Shown here: positions 8,611 through 17,523 of the stretch, one piece after another | Numbering within the stretch: position 1 is the first letter of the stretch | How the letters are laid out: each line of letters starts with the position of its first letter | DNA from: Coriobacteriia bacterium | Lineage (GTDB): Bacteria > Actinomycetota > Coriobacteriia > Anaerosomatales > Anaerosomataceae | Reading direction: 5' to 3' | NCBI GenBank assembly: GCA_030652115.1 | Contig: JAUSBK010000001.1 | Location: 1 to 34,253, forward strand | Length of the DNA stretch: 34,253 nt | Program-made: the position numbers and the translations under genes | Notes under the pieces: model-generated | Told to the model about the DNA's origin: nothing | Database searches by the model: none | Seen by the model: the letters and a program-made list of their open reading frames with translations, nothing else

Positions 8611-9057
8611 CTACCCGAGCGCGCCGACCCCGGCCGAGACCGCGAGCGTGAGCGCGCTCGCGATCGCCGCGGCAGCGAGCCACCCGGTGCCGTGCGTCAC
8701 GCGCTTGCCCACCATCGCCCCCACGATCGCGGGTACCGCATAGCCGAGCGCGAGCGACCCGAGCGCCCACGCGCCGAGCATCACCCAGCCCTGCCACACC
8801 GGAAGCCCCGCTGTCGTGTACGCCGCCGAGCTGTCGAAGTAGTCGCGCGCGCGAGCGAGGATGCGCAGTCCGTCGCCCACGAGCCACGCCGCCAGCAGCA
8901 CGAGTGCGGCCCACTGCCGCCGGTCGCGCTTCGCCTTCGGAAAGCCCATGAGCGCGGCCGCAAGCCCGGCACCCAGCGCTGCCCACAGCGGGTTGTACTG
9001 CAGGGAGAAGAGCAGCCCATCGTGCAGGGCCGTCCAGGCGGATGGGAGCCAACTCAC
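8611..9057 (-). CDS. Small membrane protein in purF operon
   Basis: A 148-residue integral membrane protein that I do not recognise. Four hydrophobic segments can be seen, near residues 23-39, 49-65, 85-112 and 125-147. A basic loop (FPKAKRDRRQ) follows the first, and an Arg/Asp-containing stretch (RILARARDYFDSS) the second. The GTG start overlaps the purF stop (GTGA), so it is translationally coupled to purF. That linkage suggests cotranscription but does not prove a role in purine synthesis; a transporter or regulatory role is possible but unsupported. Confidence 0.75.
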   Translation of the reverse strand: MSWLPSAWTALHDGLLFSLQYNPLWAALGAGLAAALMGFPKAKRDRRQWAALVLLAAWLVGDGLRILARARDYFDSSAAYTTAGLPVWQGWVMLGAWALGSLALGYAVPAIVGAMVGKRVTHGTGWLAAAAIASALTLAVSAGVGALG

Positions 9058-10556
9058 GCGTTGGGCTCCAGGGCGAGCTTGCCGCGCCGGACGCTCTCGG
9101 GCACCTCGATCGGGTACTCGCCGTCAAAGCACGCCCGGCAGAACTCCCCGGCTGGCCGCCCCGTGGAGGCCACGAGGTTCTCGAGCGGCAGGTAGGCGAG
9201 CGAATCGGCGCCGATGAAGGCACGCGTCTCCTCCACCGAGTGGCTCGAGGCGATGAGCTGCTCCTGCGTGTCGGTGTCGATGCCGTAGAAGCACGGCCAC
9301 ACCACCGGCGGTGAGGTCAGCCGAAGGTGGATCTCGGCCGCACCAGCGTCGCGCAGCAGCTGCACGAGCTGCTTTGAGGTGTTGCCGCGCACGATCGAAT
9401 CGTCCACTACCACGAGTCGCTTGCCATCGATGATGTGGCGGAGCGGGTTGAGCTTGAGGCGGATGCCCTGCTGCCGAAGCGACTGCGTGGGCGAGATGAA
9501 CGTGCGCCCCACATAGCGGTTCTTCACGAGTCCCTCGCCGTACGGCAGGCGGCTCGCCCGCGCGTAGCCGACGGCGCCGGGAATGCCCGAGTCGGGCACG
9601 CCGATGATGAGGTCGGCGTCTACGGGGAGCACCTTGGCGAGCGCCATCCCCTGGAGACGGCGCGACTCGTAGACCGAGCAGTCGGAGAGCACGCTGTCCG
9701 GGCGCGCGAAGTACACGAACTCGAACAGGCACATGCTCGGCGCACCGGGCGGCACCGCCTGCTCGCTCTCGAGCTCGCCATCCTTGATGCGGATGAGCTC
9801 GCCGGGCGCCACGTCGCGAAGGTACTCGGCACCTACGATGTCGAGCGCGCACGTCTCGGAAGCGATCACCCAGCCTCGTCGGCCCGCGTTCAGCTGGCCG
9901 AGCACGAGCGGCCGCACGCCGTGCGGGTCGCGGAAGGCGTAGAGCGCCTCCTCGGACATCATCACGACCGAGTAGGCACCGCGCATCATCTGCATCGCGT
10001 CGCGGATGCCACCACGGATGGAGTTGTGCACCTGCGTGAAGTGGTCCACGAGGCGGACCATCACTTCGGAGTCGGTGGTGGAGCGGAAGCGCACGCCGAG
10101 CGCGTGGAGTTCCTCACGGAGCGACGCGGTGTTGACCAGGTTGCCGTTGTGGCCGAGCGCGATGGTGTTGGGGCCGATCGAGCTGATCATCGGCTGCGCG
10201 TTCTCCCACTTCTTGCCCGAGCCGGTGGTGGAGTAGCGGGTGTGACCCACCGCGAGATGGCCCTGGAGCGAGTCGAGGTCGCCCTCGGTAAAGACCTGCG
10301 GCACGAGCCCGAGGTTCTTCACGACCATGAGCGTGTGACCGTCGGCCACCGCGATGCCGGCCGACTCCTGGCCGCGATGCTGAAGCGCGTGCAGGCCGAA
10401 GTACGTGAGCCGTGCGACGTCCTCGTTGCTCGCGTAGACGCCGAAGACGCCACAGGCCTCTTCGGGGTTCTCCGGCCGCTCCGAGAGGATCCAGCCGTCT
10501 GCGGGACACACGTCACCGCTGGAGAGCGAGGGGTCGGTCAAGCGCTGGTCACTCAT
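9054..10556 (-). CDS. purF: Amidophosphoribosyltransferase
   Basis: A 500-residue enzyme for the first committed step of purine synthesis, moving glutamine amide nitrogen onto PRPP. A propeptide of about 34 residues precedes the N-terminal nucleophile cysteine (EEACGVFGVY, C35), which would be exposed by self-cleavage. The Ntn glutaminase domain shows HRGQESAGIA, GHTRYSTTG and LGHNGNLVN. The phosphoribosyltransferase domain has the PRPP loop LVVVDDSIVRGNTS. Cysteines in SMCLFEFVY, WPCFYGID and FCRACFDGEYP fit the four ligands of the [4Fe-4S] B. subtilis-type enzyme. The ATG at 10556 matches the usual propeptide length better than 10598. Confidence 0.97.
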   Translation of the reverse strand: MSDQRLTDPSLSSGDVCPADGWILSERPENPEEACGVFGVYASNEDVARLTYFGLHALQHRGQESAGIAVADGHTLMVVKNLGLVPQVFTEGDLDSLQGHLAVGHTRYSTTGSGKKWENAQPMISSIGPNTIALGHNGNLVNTASLREELHALGVRFRSTTDSEVMVRLVDHFTQVHNSIRGGIRDAMQMMRGAYSVVMMSEEALYAFRDPHGVRPLVLGQLNAGRRGWVIASETCALDIVGAEYLRDVAPGELIRIKDGELESEQAVPPGAPSMCLFEFVYFARPDSVLSDCSVYESRRLQGMALAKVLPVDADLIIGVPDSGIPGAVGYARASRLPYGEGLVKNRYVGRTFISPTQSLRQQGIRLKLNPLRHIIDGKRLVVVDDSIVRGNTSKQLVQLLRDAGAAEIHLRLTSPPVVWPCFYGIDTDTQEQLIASSHSVEETRAFIGADSLAYLPLENLVASTGRPAGEFCRACFDGEYPIEVPESVRRGKLALEPNA

Positions 10557-10666
10557 GGAGACTGGGAGTCCTTGCGTGGGGACGGGCTGACGCGGCATAG
10601 GATAGCACGAGCGGTGCCGTGCCGGACTGATGGTAGGATTCTGGGGACGCCGACGAAGGGGGCACC
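10557..10666. promoter_or_regulatory. Divergent promoter region, purF and quinone operon
   Basis: These 110 bases must drive purF leftward and the UbiA-like operon rightward. A minus-strand TATCCT (about 10598-10603) and a plus-strand TAGGAT (10633-10638) are candidate -10 elements, both without good -35 partners. No PurBox-like operator is obvious. Confidence 0.35.
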
Positions 10667-11596
10667 ATGGGGCACGTCGCCGCTGCGCCGAAGAATACCG
10701 TCCGTGGATGGGTGAAGGTCTTCCGCGACCCCCCGTTCTACCTTGTGGGTGTCTTGCCCTTCAGCCTCGGCACGCTGCTCGCCGTCCGTGACGGCAACGC
10801 GATGTCGTGGGCCATCTGGGGGCTCGCCAGCATCGCGGTCGCCCTCGTGATGGCGATGACGTTCCTCGTCAACGAGTACTTCGACTACGAGACCGACGTG
10901 GCGAACGTCGCCCACAACAAGTTCAGCGGCGGGTCCCGCTCTCTGCCTCTGGGGCTCGTGGAGCGGCGGAAAGTCCTCATCGCCGCCGGCTTGTGCGCAG
11001 CGCTCGCGCTCGTGCTCGGGCTGGTGATCCAGCTCGGCTTCGAGACCGGCCCGCTCACGCTCGTGCTCGGCGCCCTCTCGGCCCTCATCGGCTACGCGTA
11101 CACCGGTGCACCGTTCCGTCTCATCTACCGCGGGCTCGGCGAGCTCATGATCGGCATCTCGGTCGGCTGGATCCCGGTCTTCATCGGCTACTACCTGACG
11201 GGCGGCGTGCCGAGCGGCAGTATGGTGCACCTCATGAGCCTGCCCGTCGCGCTCACCATCGTGATGGTCATCGTGGCCAACGAGTACCCGGACTACGAGT
11301 CCGACAAGGCGAGCGGCAAGCGCAACCTCGTGGCCCGCATAGGCCGGGAGCGGGCGGCGTGGGTGTACACGCTCCTCGGAGTGGCCACCATCGCCTCGCT
11401 CGCCTACCTCGGCTTCACCTACTTCGAGGGCTGGCGGCGCTACATCCTGGCACTCCCGGTACTGCTCAGCCTGGACGTCTCTACGGCGATCCAGGTGGGC
11501 GCCTGGAAAGAGGAGAAGCGACTCGAGAAGCTCTGCTTCGCGACGATCCTCTTGAACCTCGGCATCATCGTCCTTCTCCTGGTGGTGAACTGGTAG
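10667..11596 (+). CDS. UbiA-family prenyltransferase
   Basis: A 309-residue polytopic membrane enzyme of the UbiA superfamily, which attaches polyprenyl chains to aromatic acceptors. Eight or nine membrane segments are apparent. The two Mg-pyrophosphate-binding acidic motifs are present: NEYFDYETD at 69-77 and NEYPDYESD at 205-213, the latter followed by KASGKRNLVARIG. It could act as MenA on dihydroxynaphthoate or on another head group; the motifs do not decide this. It is the first gene of an operon with UbiU-, UbiV- and UbiT-like genes (1-base gap, then ATGA overlaps), which places it in quinone biosynthesis. The ATG follows AAGGGGG. Confidence 0.9.
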   Translation: MGHVAAAPKNTVRGWVKVFRDPPFYLVGVLPFSLGTLLAVRDGNAMSWAIWGLASIAVALVMAMTFLVNEYFDYETDVANVAHNKFSGGSRSLPLGLVERRKVLIAAGLCAALALVLGLVIQLGFETGPLTLVLGALSALIGYAYTGAPFRLIYRGLGELMIGISVGWIPVFIGYYLTGGVPSGSMVHLMSLPVALTIVMVIVANEYPDYESDKASGKRNLVARIGRERAAWVYTLLGVATIASLAYLGFTYFEGWRRYILALPVLLSLDVSTAIQVGAWKEEKRLEKLCFATILLNLGIIVLLLVVNW

Positions 11597-11597
11597 C

Positions 11598-12611
11598 GTG
11601 GCCGCCCGGAAGATCCAGCTGCGAGCGCCAGCCGGCACACTGCCCTCGCTGAGGGCAGCCGTGGACGCCGGCGCCGACGGCGTCTTCACAGGACTGCGTT
11701 CGCTCAGCAACATCCGCAACTTCCCCGGCATCAACTTCTCCGTCCAGGAGCTGCGCGAGGGACTCGAGTACGCGCACGAGCGCGACAAGGAGATCTACGT
11801 CGCGATCAACGCGTATCCGCAGGGCGACCTGGTGCAGGCGGTCTACCGCGACATCGAGACGACGGTCTCCCTCGGCGTGGACGCGCTCATCATCGCCGAC
11901 CTCGCAGCGATGCGTTTCGTGCACGATCACTTCCCCGAGATGCCCGTGCAGGTGTCGGTCCAGGGCGGCGCCGCCACTGCGCGCTTCATCAACATGCTGA
12001 GAGACGAGTTCGGCATCAAGGGTGTGGTGCTTCCGCGCATCCTGTCGATGGAGGAGATCGCCGCGGTGCGGCGCGCGACCGATGTGGAGATCGAGACCTT
12101 CGCCTTCGGCCTGCTGTGCATCAACTATGAACCGAACTGCACGATGTCGTGCTACGTGACCGGCGTGCCGAACCAGACCTACGGTGCATGCTCGCCCGCC
12201 GAGCTCATCGAGTTCGACGAGTCGGCGGACACGTTGGAGATGCGTCTCGACGGGTACCTCATGAACTCGTTCACCGCCGAGGAGGTCCGCACGTACCCGA
12301 CGCCCTGCAAGGGCCGGTACCGCGAGGAGCGCTCCGGACGTGTGACCTACCCGTTTCAGAGCCCCTCCTCGCTGCAGACCATGACGATGCTGCCTGCCTT
12401 TGTGGAGGCGGGCGTCGACGCCCTCAAGATCGAGGGACGCCAGCGCAGCAAGATGTACGTCCGTGAGGCGGTGAGCGTCTTCCGCGAGGCGATCGACGCG
12501 TACTACGCCGATCCCGCACGATTCACCGTCCGACCCGAATGGGAGGCCCGGCTCGCGGCGCTCTTCGAAGGCGGCGAGTTCACCACGACCGCGTACGGGG
12601 AGAAGACATGA
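11598..12611 (+). CDS. ubiU: UbiU-like U32 protein, [4Fe-4S] cluster
   Basis: A 337-residue protein of the peptidase U32 family. Cysteines 174, 181, 198 and 237 have spacings of 7, 17 and 39, the same as the four cluster ligands of E. coli UbiU as I recall them (169, 176, 193, 232). The characteristic contexts are LLCINYEPNCTMSC, QTYGACSP and PTPCKGRY. UbiU and UbiV form a heterodimer needed for O2-independent ring hydroxylation in ubiquinone synthesis, using prephenate as oxygen donor. The extra C185 is not part of that set. A GTG start 1 base after the prenyltransferase stop has a weak Shine-Dalgarno. Substrate in this organism is unknown; U32 relatives also modify RNA, but gene context favours a quinone. 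Confidence 0.87.
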   Translation: MAARKIQLRAPAGTLPSLRAAVDAGADGVFTGLRSLSNIRNFPGINFSVQELREGLEYAHERDKEIYVAINAYPQGDLVQAVYRDIETTVSLGVDALIIADLAAMRFVHDHFPEMPVQVSVQGGAATARFINMLRDEFGIKGVVLPRILSMEEIAAVRRATDVEIETFAFGLLCINYEPNCTMSCYVTGVPNQTYGACSPAELIEFDESADTLEMRLDGYLMNSFTAEEVRTYPTPCKGRYREERSGRVTYPFQSPSSLQTMTMLPAFVEAGVDALKIEGRQRSKMYVREAVSVFREAIDAYYADPARFTVRPEWEARLAALFEGGEFTTTAYGEKT

Positions 12612-13480
12612 AGCTCTCACTCGCGCCGCTCTCCGGCCGGTACCCGGCCAGCGCGATCGCGGAGTTCTACCGCGAGGCGTCCGCAAGCCCGGACATCGAC
12701 CGGGTCTACATCGGCGAGCTCTTTTGCGCCAAGCGCCTGATACCGCTGCGCGCCTTCGAGGAGGCTGTGACGCTGCTCGAAGACGCCGGCAAGCAGGTGT
12801 TCTTCTCGACACTCGCCCTGCCCGCCGGAGAGGCCGACTACGAGGCGGCCGAACCGTACATCGAGCGCGTGCGGACCGTGGAGGTGAACAATCTCGGCTT
12901 CATCCCGTGGCTCAAGGAGCGCTTCGAGGAGATGACGGTCGTGGCCGGGCCGCTCACGAGCCTGTACAACAACGACGATCTCGAGATCGTCCGGGACTGG
13001 GGCTGCTCGGGCGTATCACTGCGTATCGACCTCATGCCCCAGACCATGACCGATCTCAGCGCCAACGGCCCGCTGCCGGTCGAGGTCTTCTGTCACGGCC
13101 GCCCGCCACTCGCTCACTCCTGGCGCTGCTATGCCACCCGGTTCGCCGGCCGGCCGCAGAACGCGTGCGGACACGTCTGCCGCGAACAGGACGGGCTCGT
13201 GCTCAAGAACCTGGAGGGTGCAGACGGGTTCGTGGCTGATGGCCCGGCCGTCCTGCCGGGACAGGTGATCGCTACCGTCGACGAGATCACCGGATACGCC
13301 GAGGCTGGCGCCGCGTTCGGCCGCCTGTGGCTCGGCCCCGGCGAGGTGGCTCCGGTCGCTTCGGCGTACGCCGCGCTGCTCCGCGGCGAGGCGTCGGCCG
13401 AGAACACCAGGCTCGCGCTCGAGGCAGCGATCGAAGGATCGCTGCGCTTTGGGCCGACGGCAAGGCGGCGGCTGTCATGA
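12608..13480 (+). CDS. ubiV: UbiV-like U32 protein, [4Fe-4S] cluster
   Basis: A 290-residue U32 protein, close in length to E. coli UbiV (292). Cysteines 40, 174, 187 and 191 match the UbiV ligand pattern (39, 180, 193, 197 in E. coli) in the C-terminal spacing of 13 and 4 and the near-N-terminal position of the first. Contexts are YIGELFCAKR, HSWRCYATRF and NACGHVCREQDG. VEVFCHGRPPLAHSWRC resembles the substrate-pocket strand of UbiV proteins. The ATG overlaps the upstream UbiU stop (ATGA) and its own stop overlaps the next gene the same way, implying stoichiometric expression. Expected partner is the UbiU-like protein. Confidence 0.87.
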   Translation: MKLSLAPLSGRYPASAIAEFYREASASPDIDRVYIGELFCAKRLIPLRAFEEAVTLLEDAGKQVFFSTLALPAGEADYEAAEPYIERVRTVEVNNLGFIPWLKERFEEMTVVAGPLTSLYNNDDLEIVRDWGCSGVSLRIDLMPQTMTDLSANGPLPVEVFCHGRPPLAHSWRCYATRFAGRPQNACGHVCREQDGLVLKNLEGADGFVADGPAVLPGQVIATVDEITGYAEAGAAFGRLWLGPGEVAPVASAYAALLRGEASAENTRLALEAAIEGSLRFGPTARRRLS

Positions 13481-13821
13481 TCTACGGGTTCCTCGCTCCC
13501 TTCGTCCTGCTCACGCTTCGCGTGCTTTCGGGGCGCGCCGAGGCGAGACGGCACCTGCCCGACTACGAAGGGCAGGCGATCGCACTGCGCGTGCGCGGGG
13601 TATCCCGACCTTTCGTGATCGCCGTACGCGACGCGCGCTTCGTCATGGCGCCGGAGGTCGAGCCGCTCGCCGAGATCGAAGGCGAGCTCGGGACGTTCAT
13701 GGCCCTGCTGTTCGGGAAGCTCGACTACGATGCCGCGTTCTTCCGCAAGAGGATCTCGTTTCGAGGCTCGCTGCCCGCAGCGATGCGCTTCAAGGCGCTC
13801 TTCGACCACATGACGCCGTAG
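13477..13821 (+). CDS. ubiT: UbiT-like SCP2 lipid-binding protein
   Basis: A 114-residue SCP2-family protein with a hydrophobic N-terminus (residues 3-16) that may contact membrane, then the SCP2 core. The C-terminus, AAFFRKRISFRGSLPAAMRFKALFD, is like the FFxRRL...G(D/S) ending of UbiT proteins. UbiT binds hydrophobic quinone intermediates and presents them to the anaerobic hydroxylases. It is shorter than E. coli UbiT (174) and lacks most of the N-terminal extension. Start overlaps the UbiV stop (ATGA). Being last in UbiA-UbiU-UbiV-UbiT order strongly supports the assignment; alone, SCP2 would be only a general lipid-carrier call. Confidence 0.8.
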   Translation: MIYGFLAPFVLLTLRVLSGRAEARRHLPDYEGQAIALRVRGVSRPFVIAVRDARFVMAPEVEPLAEIEGELGTFMALLFGKLDYDAAFFRKRISFRGSLPAAMRFKALFDHMTP

Positions 13822-13838
13822 CGTCGCACGTACGCTAC
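13818..13838. terminator. Bidirectional hairpin between convergent genes
   Basis: GTAGCGT at 13818-13824 and ACGCTAC at 13832-13838 form a 7-bp stem with a 7-base loop. It covers the TAG stop codons of both the UbiT-like gene and the convergent WG-repeat gene. The short stem and absence of a U tract make this a modest candidate. Confidence 0.4.
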
Positions 13839-14270
13839 TCCTGCAGCTCCCACACGAACCGGCCGCTGCGGTCGATGTAGCCGACCGAAAGGCCGCTCGT
13901 GACCATGGCGAGGCCCCCGGTGAACTCCTCGGCGTACTCCCACGTGGGCTCGATCGCCCACTCGCCGCGCTCGTCGATGTAGCCGGTAAGGCCCTCATCC
14001 GCCACAGCGGCGAGGCCCTCGGGTGCGCTTGGGGGGTGCTACGGCCGGAGGGGCCGCGACCGGAAGCGGCGCGGTAAGCGCGGGAGCAGGTGCGGGCTCT
14101 GACGGAGCTGCGGGTGCTGGAGTGGGCGGTGCGACTGGCGCCGCCTCGGACACCGGCTTCATCGCAGAGAACTGCTCGCGCGCCTCGACGAGCGTTGCAC
14201 CACAGCCATCGCAGAACGACGCGTCGTCGGCCACTCGCCGACCGCATGACGGACAGAACATCGTCATCAC
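13835..14270 (-). pseudogene. Zinc-ribbon/WG-repeat protein with frameshift
   Basis: The first frame encodes 91 residues: an N-terminal zinc ribbon (FCPSCGRRVADDASFCDGCG, two CxxC pairs), then a long Pro/Ala linker, ending out of frame at 13995. In the next frame, running to a TAG at 13835, lie clear WG (KWG) repeats: GLTGYIDERGEWAIEPTW and GLSVGYIDRSGRFVWELQE. The frames would join if the C6 tract near 14032-14037 had one C fewer, giving one protein of about 144 residues. Zinc ribbon, linker and WG repeats is a plausible domain order. The break may be a real mutation, slippage-mediated phase variation or a homopolymer sequencing error. Start ATGs at 14270 or 14267. Confidence 0.75.
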
Positions 14271-14670: not shown

Positions 14671-15231
14671 CTAGTAATCCGCGACGATGCTGCCGGTCCT
14701 CTTCTTGCGCTGCCACAGCCGCCAGAACGTGTAGACGAGCCCTGCCGCGAAGAACGCGACGAGGATCGGCGCCACGATCGCGATGATCGACATCGCCACG
14801 GCCGCCATGTCCTCGGCAGCGCTCACGATCGGCGCGCCCATCCCGGCGGTGGTCACGTTCACAGCGGGCCGGGTGGTGGCCTTGGCCGCGTGCACGCCGC
14901 CCGCAAGGAGTACGCCCGCAAGCACGAGCAGCCACGGGCTGACGTCGGTGGTGCTACCGGCTGCGGCGACGGCCACGATGCCGCCTGCCGCCGGACGGAT
15001 GAAGGTCTGGATGACGTCGTTCACGTGGTCGACGGCGGGCACCTTGTCGGCCACGATCTCGATCACGAGCAGGACCGCGATGATCGCGATCATCCACCAC
15101 TCGCCCATCGCGTTGAACGGCTCCTTGAGTTCGAGCCATCCGAACTGCTGGGCGAGTGAGATCGCCAGCAGCGGTATGTAGGCGTTGAGACCCGCCGGGA
15201 TCGACAGGCCGAGCGCGGTCAGCAGCTCCAC
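14671..15231 (-). CDS. DUF4126 membrane protein
   Basis: A 186-residue integral membrane protein matching the DUF4126 pattern: LGLSIPAGLNAYIPLLAISL at the N-terminus, DKVPAVDHVNDVIQTFIRP after the second helix, and a Gly/Ala-rich glycine-zipper-like centre (AAGGIVAVAAAG, AGVLLAGGVHAAKATTRP). About five hydrophobic segments can be seen, followed by a basic C-terminal tail (RLWQRKKRTG). Function is unknown for the family. It lies 9 bases after purL, so it is probably cotranscribed with the purine genes. Confidence 0.85.
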   Translation of the reverse strand: MELLTALGLSIPAGLNAYIPLLAISLAQQFGWLELKEPFNAMGEWWMIAIIAVLLVIEIVADKVPAVDHVNDVIQTFIRPAAGGIVAVAAAGSTTDVSPWLLVLAGVLLAGGVHAAKATTRPAVNVTTAGMGAPIVSAAEDMAAVAMSIIAIVAPILVAFFAAGLVYTFWRLWQRKKRTGSIVADY

Positions 15232-15240
15232 GGCAACCCC

Positions 15241-17519
<2,279 letters not shown>

Positions 17520-17523
<4 letters not shown>

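Follow-up and report, generated by a model that had tools for sequence, protein, structure and literature searches.

A MenA-like prenyltransferase/UbiUVT operon in a deep-subsurface coriobacterium, probably part of an oxygen-independent pathway to an undescribed respiratory quinone

To our knowledge, anaerobic hydroxylation of a quinone ring is known only for ubiquinone (UQ), and whether this chemistry originated before or after oxygen is debated. In Escherichia coli the O2-independent UQ pathway uses UbiU, UbiV and UbiT (yhbUVT; PMC6747719, PMC10470549), and the cluster-cysteine motifs of UbiU and UbiV were proven there by mutation (PMC6747719). According to PMC11707229, no UQ pathway was present outside Pseudomonadota. 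That description preceded a 2026 report on the Desulfobacterota class GWC2-55-46, whose genomes carry UbiUVT as the sole hydroxylase type and contain no menaquinone (MK) genes (PMC13386864). Within the available portions of these two papers, neither UbiUV in Actinomycetota nor an operon joining a MenA-like enzyme to UbiUVT was found reported. The operon described here occupies positions 10667-13821 of a 34,253-nucleotide stretch of DNA (the window). The host was expected from the initial annotation to be an actinobacterium and is indeed a deep-subsurface member of the Actinomycetota, class Coriobacteriia, from an anaerobic lineage consistent with Anaerosomataceae (order Anaerosomatales, formerly OPB41), with a genome of 2.38 Mb (98% complete, 14 contigs). 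The operon and its features are as follows.

10628..10639, + strand: putative extended -10 promoter element TGATGGTAGGAT of the operon (sequence reading, short divergent gap to purF)
10667..11596, + strand: UbiA-superfamily, MenA-like polyprenyltransferase, 309 amino acids (aa) (open reading frame (ORF), Pfam, NCBIfam and tree)
11598..12611, + strand: UbiU orthologue, U32 hydroxylase subunit, 337 aa (NCBIfam, identity and clade)
12608..13480, + strand: UbiV orthologue, U32 hydroxylase subunit, 290 aa (NCBIfam, identity and clade)
13477..13821, + strand: UbiT-like SCP2 protein, a lipid-binding accessory factor encoded last in the operon, 114 aa (Pfam and NCBIfam)

All four ORFs are intact and co-directional. 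Their arrangement is as first described, with a 1-base gap between the prenyltransferase gene and ubiU (TAG-c-GTG) and ATGA overlaps at the ubiU/ubiV and ubiV/ubiT junctions. Orthologous UbiU, UbiV and UbiT, the eight cluster cysteines and the clade placement are shared with the E. coli system. The window set differs from it in forming part of an Actinomycetota branch, in being headed by a MenA-like prenyltransferase (UbiA lies elsewhere in E. coli), and in belonging to a genome without a UbiD match. GWC2-55-46 differs further, as it has the full ubiA/B/C/D/E/G/K/X complement, and its UQ genes were validated in E. coli (PMC13386864), whereas UbiA-type and UbiD proteins were not found in the window genome. 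The UbiUVT machinery is already known, and the MenA-like/UbiUVT operon would be categorically new if a new quinone were shown.

Both U32 proteins matched Pfam Peptidase_U32 (E-values of 4e-53 for UbiU and 2e-10 for UbiV) and the corresponding NCBIfam models: NF047963 for UbiU (2.7e-113, 378 bits against a curated cut-off of 440) and NF047965 for UbiV (1.3e-43, 150 bits against 275). The alternative TrhP model gave the UbiU protein 163 bits, far under the score of the UbiU model. UbiU shares 38.7% identity with its E. coli counterpart over 331 aa, and UbiV about 30% with E. coli UbiV; a sequence search of the PDB with UbiU gave no match. The [4Fe-4S] cysteines lie at positions 174, 181, 198 and 237 of UbiU (CX6CX16CX38C) and 40, 174, 187 and 191 of UbiV (CXnCX12CX3C), the ligand spacing noted in the initial annotation, and all eight are invariant across the aligned relatives, including E. 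coli UbiU and UbiV. An IQ-TREE phylogeny of 80 rows was built with E. coli UbiU, UbiV, TrhP and RlhA, Actinomycetota TrhP/RlhA, and UbiUV from Pseudomonadota, Nitrospirota and Actinomycetota. In this tree UbiU falls in a 29-row UbiU clade and UbiV in a 26-row UbiV clade, both with support of 100/100 and apart from TrhP and RlhA, so that the initial assignment stands and an RNA-modifying identity was rejected. The other U32 protein of the window genome is of the RlhA type. Actinomycetota UbiU proteins, from the window group, Geothermocultor and Subteraquimicrobium, group together (96/93), and those of Pseudomonadota make up another branch (100/100); the UbiV part of the tree agrees, with a separate Actinomycetota branch (100/99). 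This points to an old, orthologous set, and a recent transfer from Pseudomonadota was rejected.

The initial label of the prenyltransferase, UbiA-family, holds at the level of the superfamily (Pfam UbiA PF01040, 9.1e-32) and fails below it. For the operon PRENYLTRANSFERASE, the top NCBIfam models are MenA-type (7e-29), with only 7e-9 for a UbiA-type model (UbiA_other). A phylogeny of 41 UbiA-superfamily proteins places it in the MenA-like half (100/97) rather than the UbiA/MqnP half, and outside the clade of annotated MenA proteins; this position led to the rejection of UbiA, MqnP and CyoE as identities. Thus the best hidden Markov model family and the tree half are those of MenA, the 1,4-dihydroxy-2-naphthoate (DHNA) polyprenyltransferase, and UBIAD1, but the MenA model score is about 100 bits where 277 are required, and no men genes were found that would supply the substrate. 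Both aspartate-rich motifs, NEYFDYETD and NEYPDYESD, are intact (the second being NEYPDYESDKASGKRNL). The second motif reads NEYPD where annotated MenA has NNxRD, and the enzyme was placed in a subfamily that we name NEYPD/FSGGS. A PDB sequence search returned UBIAD1 (8djk, the closest solved structure) and DGGGP synthase, and a search of plasmids for named relatives of the prenyltransferase gave distant matches only, mostly MenA-type. The variant NE-PD motif is shared by the second prenyltransferase of the window genome and by single prenyltransferases of genomes G072, G244 and G306 and of the HyVt-362 metagenome-assembled genome (MAG), all four of which have UbiUVT genes. It was not found among the PF01040 matches of G131 and G012, both without a UbiU-type match. 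With so few genomes, no statistical claim can be made on this co-occurrence. The second prenyltransferase is also MenA-like (L085 8432-9331, G000:C13; related motif NEFPD). No quinone genes were recognised near it, and it has an orthologue in the genome of L127 (L243 7520-8482).

Among 84,980 species genomes scanned, two close relatives were found, L127 (MAG 311FN.002) and L128 (Coriobacteriia Zod_Metabat.552), and in each of them the four genes recur in unchanged order. Protein identities are 66-71% for the prenyltransferase, 76-88% for UbiU, 60-72% for UbiV and about 67-84% for UbiT. The ratios of nonsynonymous to synonymous substitution rates are 0.27-0.36, 0.08-0.19, 0.18-0.27 and 0.19-0.25, respectively. 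The operon is kept under purifying selection in three related genomes, and the conservation of its order is far beyond chance. UbiT matches Pfam SCP2 PF02036 (1.9e-9) and NCBIfam NF047962 (3e-9, 37 bits against a cut-off of 46.9). It adjoins UbiUV in the window, in both sister MAGs and in G072, G266 and G244, with orthologues in L127, L128 and other Actinomycetota UbiUVT triplets. UbiU-type matches (>270 bits) were found in 7 of 396 Actinomycetota genomes, from five families, the remaining genomes reaching at most 172 bits. In other Actinomycetota, UbiUVT occurs with no adjacent prenyltransferase. The genome scan also found UbiUVT in Nitrospirota. The system was initially treated as proteobacterial; it is indeed known there, but these genomes, together with GWC2-55-46 (PMC13386864), extend it beyond that group.

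Further analysis examined the quinone genes of the host. By profile search, the window genome has no PF02621 match (MqnA/MqnD), no MqnC or MqnE, no MenB and no PF01977 match (UbiD, including UbiD-type MqnL), and for MenD there are only off-family matches of 67 and 50 bits against a cut-off of 244. MqnP was undetected as well, both prenyltransferases lying in the MenA half of the tree. The genome therefore lacks both routes to menaquinone as well as the usual decarboxylase of ubiquinone synthesis; the initial annotation had named ordinary menaquinone as the sole quinone, with a complete men pathway, among the findings that would speak against its reading, and no such pathway was found. In the genomes of L127 and L128, MqnC/E and MenB were likewise undetected (MenD and UbiD were not searched there). 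The same models find MqnA, MqnC, MqnE, MqnP and UbiD in G131, a genome of the same family, which has no UbiU-type match. MenG is kept in G131 and also in the window genome, where MenG/UbiE scores are above the cut-off (242/158 and 230/216 bits) and the MenG neighbourhood is syntenic with that of G131 (L084 and L093). An amidohydrolase beside MenG was not counted as MqnX, because in G131 MenG has this neighbour too, while another amidohydrolase lies within the Mqn cluster. G131 also has two NuoH loci, the number reported for Parvivirga hydrogeniphila. The window genome encodes complex I (NuoC, D, H, J, K, L and M) and multihaem cytochromes with up to 19 CXXCH motifs. It therefore looks like the genome of an organism that needs a quinone yet has no known route to its synthesis. 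One locus (L264, G000:C8:80000-96000) holds multihaem cytochromes with 7, 14, 19 and 8 CXXCH motifs, one of them with an MtrC/MtrF-like domain, which suggests extracellular electron transfer; these genes lie upstream of the cytochrome c assembly and MenG genes.

With the known quinone routes missing and a hydroxylase/prenyltransferase operon present, an undescribed quinone is probably made. We consider it on balance probable that the operon encodes the ring-modifying core of an O2-independent pathway to a prenylated respiratory quinone distinct from both ubiquinone and ordinary menaquinone. Decarboxylation during prenylation is established for the MenA family. By family resemblance, the substrate of the MenA-like enzyme would be a phenolic or naphtholic acid with a carboxyl group, to which it adds a polyprenyl chain. 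CO2 would probably be lost in this step, so that no UbiD would be needed. The UbiU-UbiV heterodimer, with its two [4Fe-4S] clusters, would then hydroxylate at least one ring carbon without O2, as is established in E. coli; the oxygen donor may be prephenate, by analogy with the U32 RNA hydroxylases. UbiT would carry or present the lipid intermediate, MenG/UbiE, encoded elsewhere in the genome, would C-methylate the ring, and the quinol would serve complex I and multihaem-cytochrome respiration. A broader proposal is made more tentatively, as a possibility somewhat short of even: an entirely O2-independent quinone pathway of a new class (MenA-like "NEYPD" prenyltransferase, UbiUVT and MenG) may exist in anaerobic Actinomycetota, having replaced the futalosine pathway in Anaerosomataceae and coexisting with it in Subteraquimicrobium and the FI88_64_8 MAG.

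Several points weigh against the proposed new quinone. UbiU, UbiV, UbiT and the prenyltransferase all score under the NCBI equivalog cut-offs. Sub-cut-off UbiU and UbiV scores are common to every Actinomycetota seen, with none of the 396 genomes over the UbiU cut-off, and as these cut-offs were set on ubiquinone producers, such a score limits a claim of identical function, not of orthology. The quinone-marker negatives cover MqnA/D, MqnC/E, MqnP, UbiD, MenD and MenB; UbiC, UbiG, UbiB, UbiX, MenE and MenF were not searched. Some missing genes could lie in the unassembled 2%, though both sister MAGs agree for MqnC/E and MenB. The sequences are compatible with a benzenoid or a naphthalenoid ring. 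Moreover, "respiratory quinones were not detected" in both cultured Anaerosomataceae, despite encoded complex I and a quinone-type hydrogenase (PMC9686372). This may reflect absence, a low amount or an unrecognised quinone, and, given the futalosine genes of G131, the non-detection should not be over-read.

The main alternative, to which we give a low but appreciable probability, is that the cell scavenges DHNA, to which one of its two MenA-like enzymes adds the prenyl chain and MenG the methyl group, and that UbiUVT then hydroxylates the resulting MK. The MenA-like character of both prenyltransferases, the retention of MenG and the lack of a detected DHNA route fit this, and the use of exogenous DHNA or quinone by bacteria unable to make their own is documented (PMC10746273, PMC6687433). 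Scavenging by itself, however, leaves the hydroxylase in the operon unexplained, and free-living subsurface groups would need donors. It would also be unnecessary in G072, G266 and G306, where UbiUVT coexists with futalosine genes. Under the favoured reading and this alternative alike, the product would not be ordinary MK. That UbiUV instead provides an absent oxygenation step in an unknown route to plain MK, replacing Mqn or Men steps, appears unlikely: known MK steps need no such hydroxylation, and genomes with MqnA/C/E also have UbiUVT, even though MenG is kept in the same neighbourhood as in the futalosine-bearing G131 and, in G233, UbiU and UbiV are embedded among MqnE-like genes.

Two further explanations have very little probability. 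Synthesis of true ubiquinone by an operon acquired from Proteobacteria would accord with the presence of UbiUVT, the genes that define O2-independent UQ synthesis, and of MenG/UbiE, but UbiU and UbiV fall outside the Pseudomonadota clade, the prenyltransferase is not UbiA-type, and UbiD was undetected. As improbable is a U32 pair that modifies RNA, or a set that acts on a non-quinone lipid. Other U32 families do hydroxylate RNA, and the genome has its separate RlhA-type U32 protein; phylogeny nevertheless excludes TrhP/RlhA, and the operon includes a prenyltransferase and a UbiT-type SCP2 protein, with UbiUV lying in quinone-gene neighbourhoods in other Actinomycetota.

Such neighbourhoods are found in G233 (MAG NC_groundwater_1528). 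At L036 (C82) the order is UbiD-UbiX-UbiU-UbiT-polyprenyl diphosphate synthase, and L037 (C98) carries UbiD, an MqnE-like radical S-adenosylmethionine (SAM) protein, UbiU, UbiV, a second MqnE-like radical SAM protein, a second UbiU and an MqnP-type prenyltransferase. UbiUVT stands here among quinone genes without the window-type prenyltransferase, which ties U32 UbiUV to quinone synthesis in Actinomycetota independently of the window. Radical SAM paralogues resembling MqnE and bearing the motif GN(H/Y)HICYSNI lie beside UbiA/MqnP prenyltransferases at L037, L036, L240 and L252 (G404) and, in G233, also beside UbiD and UbiU/UbiV. G233 has no PF02621 match. This looks like a second, undescribed futalosine-like route that includes U32 hydroxylases. 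G131, G072, G266 and G306 each have a single PF02621 protein (MqnA) despite MqnC and MqnE, so that MqnD seems missing or replaced. In G306 (MAG FI88_64_8) the UbiU frame is broken by a TGA (L040 7839-8897), which may mark a pseudogene or an assembly error.

Outside Actinomycetota, methyl-plastoquinone offers a precedent, having been discovered in Nitrospirota, in aerobic nitrifiers, from respiratory complexes without a known pathway (Elling et al. 2025, cited in PMC12324825). Its MpqE methyltransferase model matches the window-genome MenG at 220.8 bits against a cut-off of 335, and a UbiUVT operon with a MenA-like enzyme was not found reported in the available text on this pathway. UbiUVT is present in the Nitrospirota MAGs L132, L133, L134, L135 and L192, the fragment from L192 showing UbiUV. 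In three of these five genomes a UbiA with 44-51% identity to that of E. coli is encoded, and a full MqnC/E is found in none; O2-independent ubiquinone or methyl-plastoquinone is possible in this group, a possibility that the available part of PMC13386864 does not mention. In the HyVt-362 MAG, labelled Spirochaetales, a UbiE/UbiG-like methyltransferase gene directly precedes UbiU-UbiV-SCP2 (L130 7382-10298), and the same genome encodes MenA-like prenyltransferases but gave no match for MqnC/E or MenB.

The operon is flanked on one side by divergent purF (9054-10598, - strand) and on the other, on the opposite strand, by a zinc ribbon ORF (13995-14270), DUF4126 (14671-15231) and purL (15241-17523). 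Between the operon and the zinc ribbon, 13822-13994 on the opposite strand reads like a tandem-repeat (WG-type) protein. The string TGATGGTAGGAT is identical at the matching place in sister MAG L127, which has purF, DUF4126 and purL around its operon as well. Assembly contamination was rejected on the basis of contig size and context: 509 kb for the contig with the window operon and 253 kb for that of the sister, where these three neighbours recur.

The separate UbiUV lineage is deep, it is joined to a MenA-like enzyme, and the menaquinone routes are missing from its host. If the proposed pathway is correct, O2-independent quinone-ring hydroxylation would be older or more general than ubiquinone, and a type of respiratory quinone would remain undescribed. 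This might explain why quinones were not detected in the cultured members of the lineage.

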